Assembly (NCBI GenBank): GCA_026645935.1
Contig: JAPKMP010000012.1
Coordinates: 1-64,000, forward strand
From: Candidatus Villigracilaceae bacterium
Lineage (GTDB): Bacteria; Chloroflexota; Anaerolineae; Anaerolineales; Villigracilaceae
Length of the DNA: 64,000 bases
Direction: 5' to 3'
In this document: positions 22,152 through 25,913 of the stretch, one piece after another
Layout of the letters: every line of letters begins with the position of its first letter
Numbering within the stretch: the stretch's first letter is position 1
Position numbers and translations under genes: made by a program
The notes under the pieces: model-generated
What the model was told of the DNA's origin: nothing
Databases searched by the model: none
What the model saw: the letters and a program-made list of their open reading frames with translations, nothing else

Positions 22152-23393
22152 TCATACAAGTTTTGCGAGCAAGTCCCTCTCCTCGAATTCAGTGGTGACC
22201 TCGCCGTCCAACCAGGCGGCACGGAGGCGGTTCAACACCTCGCCTAACCGCGGACCGGGCGCCAGCCCAAGTTTCTTCAAGTCTTCGCCCGTTGTCCGCG
22301 CTCTGACGTGCCGCCAGATGGAAATATAACTCAATAACGCATTTTCACGCGTAACCAGGTAAACGGCGTAGATGGAAAGCAGGGGCAGTTTTTCAAGGGC
22401 ATACGCCCACTCGCTAGGCTTTGCCCCGGTCAGGTGCGGCAGGCTCCGCTTCAATTGCGCGCCCGCCCAAACCGCCAGAGACAACTCGTTTGAAAAATCC
22501 AACCGGTTGACCAGCAGGAAGATCTCCTCCTCCGAAAGGTCGATGAACCACAGAATAAACCCCATCACCCGCCGGTCGGCAGCGACATCGAGGTGAGCAT
22601 CCATTTCAAGGTAATCGGCATAATCCTGGGTGAATTCGGGCATCTTTGGATGTATCGACTCCAAAATCCCCAATCCTGCCAAGCGCATCAACATTTTCGC
22701 CGACTCATTTTCATCGAGAATCAAATCCAATTCGTTCCGCAGACGCTCGCCGCTCAATGACTCGAGCACCTTTAGCGCTTCACGGTTCATCGAATTTAGC
22801 GTTTCAGGTTCGATATCAAACCCATACCGCACTTCATAGCGGATGGCGCGAAAGATACGGGTTGGATCGTCGATAAAAGAATTGGGATGAAGGATGCGGA
22901 TCACTCCCCGCTCGAGGTCTGCTCGGCCTCCCAACGGGTCGAGGATTTCGCCCAAGCCCTTTCCATCCACGCGCAACGCGATTGCGTTTACCGTGAAGTC
23001 ACGCCGCCGCAGGTCATCTTCAATCGTGGAAGGTTTTACTGTGGGGAGCGCGCCCGGCTTTTCGTAGGTTTCGCTGCGGGCAGTGATGATGTCAACCACA
23101 TGATCTGAATCAGGCACATGCCAAAAGGCGGTGCGGAATTTGAAGTGTGAAGTCTGCCTGCCGCCATATACTTCGACGAGTCGCGCAGCAAATGCTACGG
23201 CGTCGCCTTCGACGATGACATCCAGGTCTTTGATCGGTCTGCCGAGCAAAAGGTCTCGCACGCAGCCGCCGACGAGATAGCAAGGCATGCGCAGGGATTC
23301 CGCCTCGGCGGCGATGTCCGAGAGTAGAGTCTGTTTTTCGGACGGAATCAAGTAAGGGTCACGAAGGAGGCGCAGCATGTCATCCTTTTGCAT
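22152..23393 (-). CDS. cca: CCA tRNA nucleotidyltransferase/poly(A) polymerase family
   Basis: The 413-residue class II nucleotidyltransferase has the VGGCVRDLLLGRPIKDLDVIV catalytic motif (two Asp), the RRRDFTVNAIAL motif, DDPTRIFRAIRYEVRYGF and the SGERLRNELDLIL neck motif. It builds or repairs the 3' CCA of tRNAs; a poly(A) polymerase or A-adding split role cannot be excluded by eye. The gene starts 7 nt after a TAAAAT box with no Shine-Dalgarno. It is divergent from the candidate small RNA, and the two -10 boxes lie within 16 bp of each other. Confidence 0.93.
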   Translation of the reverse strand: MQKDDMLRLLRDPYLIPSEKQTLLSDIAAEAESLRMPCYLVGGCVRDLLLGRPIKDLDVIVEGDAVAFAARLVEVYGGRQTSHFKFRTAFWHVPDSDHVVDIITARSETYEKPGALPTVKPSTIEDDLRRRDFTVNAIALRVDGKGLGEILDPLGGRADLERGVIRILHPNSFIDDPTRIFRAIRYEVRYGFDIEPETLNSMNREALKVLESLSGERLRNELDLILDENESAKMLMRLAGLGILESIHPKMPEFTQDYADYLEMDAHLDVAADRRVMGFILWFIDLSEEEIFLLVNRLDFSNELSLAVWAGAQLKRSLPHLTGAKPSEWAYALEKLPLLSIYAVYLVTRENALLSYISIWRHVRARTTGEDLKKLGLAPGPRLGEVLNRLRAAWLDGEVTTEFEERDLLAKLV

Positions 23394-23416
23394 AAAATCA
23401 ATTTTACCCTTATAAT
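23388..23416 (+). promoter_or_regulatory. Promoter of candidate small RNA / mazG leader
   Basis: TTGCAT (23388-23393), a 17-bp spacer and a perfect TATAAT (23411-23416) predict a start near 23423. Confidence 0.6.
23401..23406 (-). promoter_or_regulatory. Leaderless -10 box of cca
   Basis: TAAAAT on the minus strand ends 7 nt before the cca ATG. It nearly abuts the plus-strand TATAAT at 23411, so the two divergent promoters would compete for polymerase. Confidence 0.45.
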
Positions 23417-23422
23417 CTGGCG

Positions 23423-23536
23423 CATGTTGACCGCGAAACGCCCGAACCCGTCCCCTAGAATGTGTAACTCCTCCAGGTCTGGCTAGGTTCGCTTAATCGC
23501 GCCCAAACGGCTCCCAGACTTGGCGAGCCGTTTTTT
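23423..23536 (+). ncRNA. Candidate structured small RNA, about 114 nt
   Basis: A promoter with a perfect TATAAT precedes a 114-nt stretch with no convincing ORF, ending in a textbook terminator (stem 23505-23513 with 23525-23533, then T run). Inner pairing is possible: CGCGA (23432-23436) with TCGCG (23497-23501), and CGAACC (23443-23448) with GGTTCG (23486-23491). The exposed loop carries ACTCCTCCAGG, which contains the anti-Shine-Dalgarno core CCTCC. It lacks the GGAAGCAGC loop of SRP RNA and any tRNA, tmRNA or RNase P feature. It could be an independent sRNA or an attenuator leader for the downstream MazG-like gene. Confidence 0.45.
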
Positions 23537-23537
23537 G
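23505..23537 (+). terminator. Terminator of the candidate small RNA
   Basis: A 9-bp stem AAACGGCTC/GAGCCGTTT with an 11-nt loop runs into TTTTTT only 14 nt before the MazG-like start codon. Confidence 0.85.
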
Positions 23538-23550
23538 TTGGATGGTGAAA

Positions 23551-23868
23551 ATGAAAGATTTGACGATCAAAGAATTGACGGAACAAATGCATGCGCTGGT
23601 GAAGTCGAAGGGATGGTACGAGGCGGACAGCAAACGCCCGCAGACACCGCGCAATCTGGCGGTCTCGCTATCGATCGAAGCCGCTGAGATCTTGGAACAT
23701 TTTCAATTTACAGACGAGATTCAAGACCGCGACGAACTGGGAAGTGAATTGGCAGACGTATTGCTGTATCTAATGCAGCTGGCTTCGATCTCAGGCATCG
23801 ACCTGGAAGAGGCGGTTCTGAAAAAGATCGAGAAGAATAAAACCCGGCAGTGGGATGTTGAAAAATGA
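23551..23868 (+). CDS. MazG-like nucleotide pyrophosphohydrolase
   Basis: The 105-residue all-helical protein carries the MazG/RS21-C6 metal motif: SIEAAEILEHF (the EExxE-type helix) followed by ELADVLLYLMQLA, giving the E-x-x-E and E-x-x-D ligands. This class cleaves non-canonical or dCTP-type nucleotides to the monophosphate and PPi, cleaning the nucleotide pool. The ATG at 23551 is chosen because GGTG precedes it; an ATG at 23542 lies almost on the terminator. A terminator just upstream suggests attenuated or separate transcription. The stop overlaps the next gene by 4 nt. Confidence 0.88.
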   Translation: MKDLTIKELTEQMHALVKSKGWYEADSKRPQTPRNLAVSLSIEAAEILEHFQFTDEIQDRDELGSELADVLLYLMQLASISGIDLEEAVLKKIEKNKTRQWDVEK

Positions 23869-24401
23869 ATGTGACTGTATTTGGCGGCGCACAGCCGAAA
23901 GAAAGAACACCCGCATACGAAGAAGCGCGCCAATTAGGCGCACTCCTCGCCCAGCGCGGACACGTTGTATTGAGCGGCGGTTACATGGGCACGATGGAAG
24001 CCGTCTCGCGCGGCGCGTACGAAGCGGGCGGGCACGTCATCGGCGTGACCTGCGAAGACATCGAAGCCTGGAGACCGACAAAAGCCAACGGCTGGGTGAA
24101 AGAGGAAAGAAGGAAGAAAACCCTTCATGAAAGAATCCTGGCGTTGATCGAAGGCTGTGATGCGGCAATGGCGCTCCCCGGCGGCGCAGGCACGTTGACC
24201 GAAATCATGATGATGTGGAATCTGATGATCGTGGAGTCCCTGCCCCGAAGACCGTTGGTACTCATCGGGCGGGGCTGGCAGTCCACGTTCGACCAGTTCT
24301 TCGGCGAATTTGAAAGTTACATGCCTGTCCAACAAAGAGAGTTGTTATACTTTGCGGGCGATGTGAAAGATGCAATAAAGAGATTAGATATTGGAGATTA
24401 G
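23865..24401 (+). CDS. LOG family protein (TIGR00725-like, 'lysine decarboxylase' fold)
   Basis: The 178-residue Rossmann-like protein has the family motif PGGAGTLTE (about residues 105-113) and an N-terminal VFGGAQPKERTPAYEEAR with SGGYMGTMEAVSRGA, the GGGxxGxM-like loop. LOG proteins cleave cytokinin-type or other nucleotide 5'-monophosphates to free base and ribose phosphate; many annotated as lysine decarboxylases are not. It is translationally coupled (ATGA) to the MazG-like gene, so a joint role in nucleotide clean-up is plausible (inference). Confidence 0.88.
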   Translation: MNVTVFGGAQPKERTPAYEEARQLGALLAQRGHVVLSGGYMGTMEAVSRGAYEAGGHVIGVTCEDIEAWRPTKANGWVKEERRKKTLHERILALIEGCDAAMALPGGAGTLTEIMMMWNLMIVESLPRRPLVLIGRGWQSTFDQFFGEFESYMPVQQRELLYFAGDVKDAIKRLDIGD

Positions 24402-24473: not shown

Positions 24474-25913
24474 ATGGCTGAAGACAAACTACCCACCCGA
24501 GCAGAAGACTTTTCCGAATGGTACAACCAGTTGGTCGTGCGCGCTGACATGGCGGATTACTCGCCCGTGCGCGGATGTATGGTGGTCAAGCCGTATGGCT
24601 GGGCGCTTTGGGAAAACATCTGTTCGTGGCTGGATGCGGAATTCAAAAAGACCGGTCACGTCAACGCGGCGTTCCCGACCCTCATCCCGATGTCATTCTT
24701 CGAAAAAGAGAAGGAACACGTCGAAGGTTTCGCGCCAGAACTGGCGGTCGTCACCCACGGCGGCGGACAAGAACTCGAAGAGAAGCTCGCGGTGCGTCCC
24801 ACCTCTGAGACCATCATCGGTCATATGTATGCGAAGTGGGTCAAATCCTGGCGCGACCTGCCGCTGTTGATCGTGCAGTGGGGTTCGGTGATGCGCTGGG
24901 AATTGCGCACCAAACTCTTCCTGCGCACAGCCGAATTCTACTGGCACGAAGGACACACCGCGCACGCCAGCGAAGAGGAAGCCAAAGAGGAGATGTACCG
25001 CATCCTCGACATCTACGAACGCTTCTGCCTCGAAGAAGCCGCCATCCCTGTTTTCAAAGGAACCAAGAGCGAGACAGAACGCTTCGCAGGCGCACAGATC
25101 ACGACATCCATTGAAGCGATGATGTGGGACAAGCGCGCGCTGCAATCGGGCACATCTCACTATTTCGGTGATAATTTCTCAAAGGCGTTCGAGATCCAAT
25201 TCTTGAACAAAGACAACAAACTGACCTATGCACAAACGACATCGTGGGCGATCTCGTCCCGCATCATCGGCGCGATGATCATGGTCCACGGCGACGACAA
25301 CGGACTTGTCCTGCCGCCCCGCCTCGCACCCATCCAGGCTGTGGTCGTTCCCATTTTCAAGAATGACGTGGAAAAAGAAAAAGTCATGGAAGTTGCCAAC
25401 CGCCTCTTCGCTGAACTCAAGGCTGCGGGTGTGCGCGTGAAGTTTGACGACCGCGATAATGTGTCCAGCGGCTTCAAGTTCAACGACTGGGAAATGCGCG
25501 GCGTGCCCGTCCGCGTGGAGATGGGTCCCAAGGACGTGGAAAAAGGAACCGTTGCTCTCGCGCGCCGCGACAAGCCCGGCAGGGAAGGCAAAACTTTTGT
25601 CTCGCAAGACGGCATCGCCGACACCGTCAAGACTCTGCTGACCGATGTACAGGCATCCCTGCTCAAACGCGCCACCGAATATCGCGACTCGAACATCCAC
25701 GATGCAAAGACTTTCGATGAATTAAAGAAAGTCGTGCAGGACGGGTGGGCATTTGCCTATTGGTGCGAATCGACCGAATGCGAAAAGAAGGTCAAGGAAG
25801 AAGCCAAAGCCACCACGCGCAACATCCCATTCCACCAACCGGACGCGGAAGGCAAGTGCGTTGTCTGCGGTAAGCCGTCCAAGCGCAAGGTGTATTTCGC
25901 AAAAGCATATTAA
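24474..25913 (+). CDS. proS: Prolyl-tRNA synthetase, archaeal/eukaryotic type (ProS type 3)
   Basis: The 479-residue enzyme has class II motifs: motif 2 region WELRTKLFLRTAEFYWHEGHTAH and motif 3 around the C-terminal GDDNGLVLPPRLAP, then an anticodon-binding domain and the type-3 zinc-binding C-terminus (Cys in TECEKK and CVVCGK) ending in KAY. The editing domain of bacterial type ProS is absent, which is normal for this type. The ATG at 24474 follows ACGAGGAC; the frame upstream to 24405 is repeat-derived and rejected. Confidence 0.95.
   Translation: MAEDKLPTRAEDFSEWYNQLVVRADMADYSPVRGCMVVKPYGWALWENICSWLDAEFKKTGHVNAAFPTLIPMSFFEKEKEHVEGFAPELAVVTHGGGQELEEKLAVRPTSETIIGHMYAKWVKSWRDLPLLIVQWGSVMRWELRTKLFLRTAEFYWHEGHTAHASEEEAKEEMYRILDIYERFCLEEAAIPVFKGTKSETERFAGAQITTSIEAMMWDKRALQSGTSHYFGDNFSKAFEIQFLNKDNKLTYAQTTSWAISSRIIGAMIMVHGDDNGLVLPPRLAPIQAVVVPIFKNDVEKEKVMEVANRLFAELKAAGVRVKFDDRDNVSSGFKFNDWEMRGVPVRVEMGPKDVEKGTVALARRDKPGREGKTFVSQDGIADTVKTLLTDVQASLLKRATEYRDSNIHDAKTFDELKKVVQDGWAFAYWCESTECEKKVKEEAKATTRNIPFHQPDAEGKCVVCGKPSKRKVYFAKAY

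Follow-up and report, generated by a model that had tools for sequence, protein, structure and literature searches.

A probable proline-sensing leader-peptide attenuator ahead of the prolyl-tRNA synthetase operon in Villigracilaceae

T-box riboswitches (RF00230) sense tRNA charging upstream of aminoacyl-tRNA synthetase and amino-acid genes. Control by proline codons in a leader peptide is found in the mgtL leader of Salmonella, where the downstream gene is regulated. Leaderless short ORFs of the polycysteine kind were reportedly described in mycobacteria by Canestrari et al. in 2020. According to the excerpted text of PMC9031893, such mycobacterial ORFs attenuate their operon, which had been proposed earlier (PMC4633059). 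For the mycobacterial cys leaders, PMC1262725 found no conserved terminator hairpins; for Streptomyces, it predicts that trpS and leuS are preceded by classical attenuators, and it cites pheST. Among the titles and opening lines of abstracts in the open-licence PMC literature that was searched, no case of proS being controlled by a leader-peptide attenuator appeared, nor any such attenuator from Chloroflexota; in the excerpt of PMC4833913, Chloroflexi are named only as a group with too few genomes.

The element analyzed here resembles the classical attenuators (trp, his; pheST, trpS, leuS) in having a leader rich in the amino acid that would be sensed and a terminator with a candidate antiterminator as its alternative, and its target, as in the cases that involve synthetase genes, is the matching synthetase. 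It differs from them in concerning proline and proS, in the alternating P-x-P-x-P arrangement of its control codons, in its probably leaderless mRNA, and in the position of segment 2 within the end of the ORF. With the mycobacterial polycysteine ORFs it shares a leaderless-looking short ORF that is enriched in the amino acid thought to be sensed, whereas, unlike the mycobacterial cys leaders, it carries a strong intrinsic terminator and a candidate antiterminator. Compared to mgtL, whose target is a Mg2+ transporter and in which consecutive prolines and EF-P matter, both the target and the spacing of the prolines are different.

The element lies in the window, by which we mean the whole stretch of 64,000 nucleotides that was analyzed (positions 1 to 64,000 of contig JAPKMP010000012.1, assembly GCA_026645935.1, from a Candidatus Villigracilaceae bacterium). 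Its features and those of the neighboring genes are as follows:

Intergenic gap between cca (divergent) and the MazG-like gene, 157 nt: carries the leader promoter, the ORF and the terminator
23388..23416, + strand: leader and operon promoter TTGCAT-17-TATAAT (TTGCAT 23388-23393, TATAAT 23411-23416)
23388..23406, - strand: divergent cca start, TAAAAT-7 nt-ATG, overlapping the leader promoter
23424..23486, + strand: leader-peptide ORF, MLTAKRPNPSPRMCNSSRSG and a stop, probably leaderless; 20 codons, ATG 7 nt past the -10 box
23442..23456, + strand: candidate control codons Pro-Asn-Pro-Ser-Pro (Pro at 23442, 23448 and 23454)
23443..23448, + strand: segment 1, CGAACC; possible pairing with GGTTCG at 23486-23491 as a 1:2 protector hairpin (weak)
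23473..23482, + strand: segment 2, CCAGGTCTGG; codons preceding the stop, putative 5' arm of the antiterminator
23506..23536, + strand: intrinsic terminator (3:4), arms 23506-23513 and 23525-23532, T-run 23531-23536
23514..23523, + strand: segment 3, CCAGACTTGG; terminator loop, putative 3' arm of the antiterminator
23551..23868, + strand: MazG-like nucleotide pyrophosphohydrolase (PF12643, PF03819), gene 1 of the operon; alternative start 23542
23865..24401, + strand: LOG-type protein (Lysine_decarbox / SLOG; TIGR00730 under its cut-off)
24474..25913, + strand: proS, prolyl-tRNA synthetase (proS_fam_I; TIGR00408, 575 bits against a cut-off of 437)

The best explanation for this segment is that it is the control region of the mazG-LOG-proS operon. 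The leader promoter is the only promoter visible for the operon, because cca is divergent and the end of the T-run is separated from mazG by only 14 nt (ATG at 23551) or 5 nt (alternative ATG at 23542). A sequence-only reading of the same DNA had pointed out the promoter TTGCAT-17-TATAAT and a terminator 14 nt ahead of the next start, and both are indeed present, the promoter at 23388-23416 and the terminator (AACGGCTC / CCAGACTTGGC / GAGCCGTT, with the T-run up to 23536) before the mazG start at 23551. The same reading had considered the stretch to be without a good ORF, which has to be corrected, as an ORF of 20 codons opens 7 nt past the -10 box and its amino-acid sequence is conserved. It had also taken ACTCCTCC for a mimic of the anti-Shine-Dalgarno sequence; these letters are the codons Asn-Ser-Ser, and relatives read ATCTACC, ATCTTCC, ATCCTCC and others, and this interpretation is not supported. 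The nested pairing that it described is only modestly better than in shuffled sequences, the fold of 23418-23537 having -39.2 kcal/mol and a z of -1.96, with 9 of 200 shuffles equally good. Its statement that no RNA family could be recognized agrees with the Rfam covariance search, in which no family matched anywhere in the window at the gathering score; with a loosened threshold, only mir-432 (E 0.047) and a snoRNA (E 1.7) appeared, both at chance level. Taken alone, the promoter is not outstanding, since a consensus scan of the 4-kb region yielded three promoter-like sites where 2.3 would be expected. Nor does the consensus scan list the terminator, because it permits only loops of 3-8 nt and the loop here is longer. 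It is by their conservation, and not by the consensus scans, that promoter and terminator rise above chance.

The segment very probably acts as a ribosome-mediated transcription attenuator that senses charged tRNA-Pro and controls proS. The ORF, the control codons, the terminator, the complementarity, the spacing and the link to proS are evident at the level of sequence; leaderless initiation in this organism, stalling on starvation and readthrough are what we infer from them. RNA polymerase would start at the ATG or within a nucleotide or two of it, and a ribosome would initiate directly on the AUG at the 5' terminus, with no need of a Shine-Dalgarno site. With ample Pro-tRNA, this ribosome would pass Pro-x-Pro-x-Pro, reach the stop and cover segment 2 (CCAGGUCUGG), upon which the terminator hairpin would form and transcription would halt ahead of mazG. 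When Pro-tRNA is scarce, the ribosome would stall on a Pro codon with its leading edge short of segment 2, the free segment 2 would pair with the emerging CCAGACUUGG, and the terminator hairpin could not close; polymerase would then read into proS, resulting in more prolyl-tRNA synthetase. The edge of a ribosome lies about 12-14 nt past the first base of its A site, so a stall on any of the three Pro codons would leave 23473-23482 free, and a ribosome at the stop would cover it.

The leader mRNA is probably leaderless, since the ATG lies only 7 nt after TATAAT. Spacing between the -10 box and the ATG was 6 or 7 nt in all of the 70 tabulated leaders, although 4-10 nt were permitted; outside this set, it was 8 nt in L068 and 9 nt in L046 and L047. 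An exact TATAAT was present in 69 of the 70 leaders, L145 having AATAAT (the choice of candidates favored TATAAT). Not included in the counts over 70 leaders are the frameshifted L018, the decayed copy L163, and L147, L035, L039-L049 and L068. Throughout the genome that contains the window, the pattern TATAATN{6,7}ATG occurs 148 times, compared to 19 for the reversed pattern (an approximately eightfold excess), and 27 of 30 fetched sites open into frames of at least 76 codons. Leaderless genes seem to be common in this lineage, judging from such sites. A class-level table, as far as its excerpt goes, lists Anaerolineae with a usable Shine-Dalgarno signal (PMC10783764), so leaderless starts would not be the rule there and both kinds of start seem to be in use.

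On the other strand, cca has TAAAAT 6-7 nt ahead of its ATG in 25 of 35 loci of the genus, the remaining 10 being those in which cca does not adjoin the leader. Thus, cca itself looks leaderless, and with its -10 box inside the spacer of the leader promoter, the two promoters overlap. In six loci (L009, L016, L021, L022, L025 and L026), about 60-70 extra nt lie between the usual -35 region and the leader's -10 box; this insert holds a hairpin-like inverted repeat, for example GTTCAAAAAT...ATTTTTGAAC, and may be an insertion element or an operator.

The sequence-only reading had looked to conservation in close relatives, and a BLAST search of 61 related genomes detected the element in 36 of the 37 genomes of the genus, its own included, along with two short and weak matches outside the genus (E 0.001-0.002). 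In 34 of the 36 genus loci, an ATG 6 or 7 nt past TATAAT is followed by 17, 18 or 20 codons, a stop, 19-22 nt and the terminator. As to the other two, L018 has a frameshift after the Pro codons that gives a reading of 39 aa and may be a real change or an assembly error, and L035 is cut by a contig end just ahead of the ATG, its remainder reading MKLIPNPSPRIYKSSLSG and a stop. A covariance model of the leader, which was trained on a part of the family's sequences (35 rows), matched 140 of 152 genomes of the family at E 0.1 and 136 at 1e-6, in 24 of 26 genera. EnvOPS12/Villigracilaceae is what we take to be the GTDB name of this family. Among its high-quality genomes (completeness of 90% or more, contamination of 5% or less), 85 of 88 were matched by the model, and three (G154, G218 and G240) had no match. 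We fetched 40 family matches, comprising 37 first copies from 23 other genera and three second copies. The same architecture was identified by script in 36 of these first copies and by eye in the last one (L147, MIGNTQNPSPAIC and a stop). Among the three second copies, L163 has a decayed leader and the other two have none. L163 (G248:C64) carries TGTAAT, a mismatched terminator and a truncated mazG downstream, and a strong match lies on the same contig.

Beyond the family, a class-wide covariance search of 298 genomes resulted in 14 strong matches, every one of them inside the family, and in 16 genomes with weak matches alone (27.6 bits or less), several of which cover the terminator only. None of the weak-match loci (L110-L125) had a match to proS, MazG, LOG or Cca. 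In one of them, from another family of the same class (L112, 1501-1618), the weak match shows CTGGCTAGGTTC followed by a hairpin and T-run, and the locus has no proS match. Scanning named genomes for the exact pattern returned 85 stretches; among the 80 matches listed, the titles are Chloroflexi, Anaerolineae, Anaerolineales and the like, and the matches listed include OLB14 (filed under Tepidiformia at NCBI), UTCFX1, CFX11 and one Herpetosiphon. To cover other families of the order, proS was matched in 77 of 121 genomes, which gave 30 loci, 17 of them outside the family (L051-L067). No comparable Pro-rich ORF with a terminator was found within 1500 bp at these 17 loci; loose script matches in L051, L056, L057 and L061 look like chance.

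The constant gene downstream of the leader is proS. It lies downstream of the leader, in the same orientation, in 33 of 36 genus loci, 32 of them within the fetched stretch and the 33rd (L004, which has an extra gene between LOG and proS) with a longer fetch, and the other three (L010, L015 and L018) end short of where proS would lie. The same was observed for all 37 first-copy loci from 23 other genera. In L009, L039 and L161, proS comes directly after the leader, both mazG and LOG being missing; mazG was not found in L017, L019, L027, L029 and L035, and cca does not adjoin the leader in at least 10 relatives. The target also bears on what is sensed: Pro-rich peptides can pause ribosomes, for which mgtL and EF-P are precedents in the literature as excerpted, and the signal read by the leader might not be proline charging but, for instance, EF-P-dependent pausing, the general rate of translation or initiation on leaderless mRNA. 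We regard this as improbable, however, given that adjacent prolines are present in just 4 of the 70 leaders and that the constant target is the very enzyme that charges tRNA with proline.

Comparative evidence supports translation of the leader ORF. The three Pro places are Pro in all 35 genus leaders examined, with third-base changes only and with CCG, CCA, CCT and CCC all in use. Between the second and the third Pro, 33 of 35 leaders have TCC, TCG or TCA, the other two encoding Phe and Thr, and the truncated relative L035 has AGC for Ser where others have TCN. Among the 70 leaders, the number of Pro residues ranges from 2 to 6 (seven leaders with just two), and P-x-P-x-P is present in 61 and absent from nine. 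Changes were also counted along a LOG+ProS tree, for which L010 (too little sequence) and L141, L146 and L160 (no P-x-P) were further dropped, leaving 66 leaders; in the third Pro column, 22 changes fell on the third base and 9 on the first two, and the last Gly column had 12 changes at base 3 against one elsewhere. The first two Pro columns served as alignment anchors and were left uncounted, and because the picking of ORFs favored Pro, those counts are partly circular, a circularity from which the nucleotide alignment and the stop-anchored columns are free.

The Ser codon preceding the last Gly behaves differently from the Pro codons: it is always UCU in the genus (34 of 34 leaders) and has no third-base change among the 66 leaders of the tree, pointing to an RNA-level constraint at the place where segment 2 would meet the terminator loop. 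In 66 of the 70 leaders, the conserved peptide ends in Ser-Gly, as might be expected of a small protein (17-25 aa) that has its own function and whose gene merely ends in a terminator, leaving proS to readthrough. The pattern of conservation makes such a protein highly improbable, since most residues drift and what is kept are the Pro codons and the RNA-paired UCUGG, the invariant UCU contrasts with the variation of other Ser codons and so indicates RNA pairing, and proS is linked in every first-copy locus that reaches far enough. The promoter-like site and terminator, the modest folding excess and the strong conservation could suggest a noncoding sRNA, about 110 nt long and acting in trans, that has a promoter and a terminator to itself. 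Such an sRNA is equally improbable and is rejected on in-frame conservation with synonymous drift across 24 genera, on a proS linkage that holds though the neighbors change, and on the lack of space for another promoter ahead of mazG (detecting a short RNA would not by itself be decisive, since the attenuator would also yield a terminated leader transcript); thus, of the two roles offered by the earlier reading, a regulatory sRNA or a terminator-controlled leader, only the leader is retained.

Attenuation by the leader would further require two mutually exclusive RNA structures. For the terminator, 99.4% of alignment cells are paired, including seven double-change cells, and four of five covariation measures were reached by none of 500 shuffles and the fifth by 16 of 500. 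The candidate antiterminator in the window is a helix of 10 bp between the last leader codons and the terminator loop, and it would exclude the terminator. Over its 10 pairs, 91.3% of cells are paired against 90.1 in shuffled sets (reached by 2 of 500), and its covariation score was reached by 11 of 500; the double-change measures, reached by 129, 148 and 132 of 500 shuffles, are no better than in shuffled sets because the antiterminator core hardly varies. Pairing between each leader and its own loop beats all 300 between-species shuffles, which, like the 500 shuffles of the antiterminator, do not correct for relatedness; no more than 50 of the 70 leaders have stronger pairing with their own loop than with the average loop of the others, and the continuous antiterminator helix is 7 bp or shorter in 39 of 70. 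L147 has a swapped pair of 8 bp, CCGGUUCC:GGAACCGG, in place of GUCUGG:CCAGAC.

Folding predictions depend on how much of the RNA has been made. With a ribosome on the second Pro and the nascent chain extending as far as the terminator's 3' arm, the predicted probability of the antiterminator is at least 0.5 in 66 of 70 leaders, and four fail; with a ribosome at the stop, the terminator is predicted to form in all 70. At full equilibrium in the stalled state, the terminator still beats the antiterminator, with a probability of at least 0.5 in 61 of 70, and in the window about 1-2 kcal/mol separate one state from the other. The attenuator model therefore needs cotranscriptional folding, in which the order of synthesis decides. 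Evidence for the 1:2 protector hairpin is weak: it has at least 5 bp in 29 of 70 leaders, with a mean of 4.71 against 3.93 when shuffled. It is clear only in the genus, where 28 of 34 leaders have 5-6 bp; the other genera mostly do not exceed 4 bp.

We also checked whether a T-box accompanies proS. At the gathering score, RF00230 had no match in the window or at the proS locus of this genome, and with E up to 0.001 it had none on the contig of the leader. At 18 other proS loci, none was found at the gathering score, a threshold that weak T-boxes in other families could escape. In contrast to T-box-controlled genes, then, the proS leader has no match even below threshold, and the seven matches of its genome under the Rfam gathering score (49-89 bits, including G000:C1:116515-116824 and G000:C37:7482-7835) lie elsewhere. 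One of them ends about 365 nt before a pheS match and another about 780 nt before a trpE-type match, and no leader peptide of the kind seen at proS was found upstream of pheS and two chorismate-binding (trpE-type) genes.

If the attenuator is real, translated-leader control of amino-acid genes extends to Chloroflexota and to proS, and does so in a leaderless form. We tentatively suggest, as a possibility that is less probable than the attenuator itself, that the family at large uses a leaderless attenuation in which ribosomes have to load at the extreme 5' end of the nascent transcript. The switch would thereby read both Pro-tRNA charging and the capacity for leaderless initiation, and it would operate beside T-box-like elements that serve other amino acids within one genome. 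A segment conserved in more than 100 genomes, which belong to uncultured bacteria according to their record titles, would gain a function, and its leader is an example of the small leader ORFs that are overlooked when they lack a Shine-Dalgarno site. A leader peptide that shares its genome with T-box-like elements would also make a natural pair with them for asking why one device or the other is used for a given synthetase.
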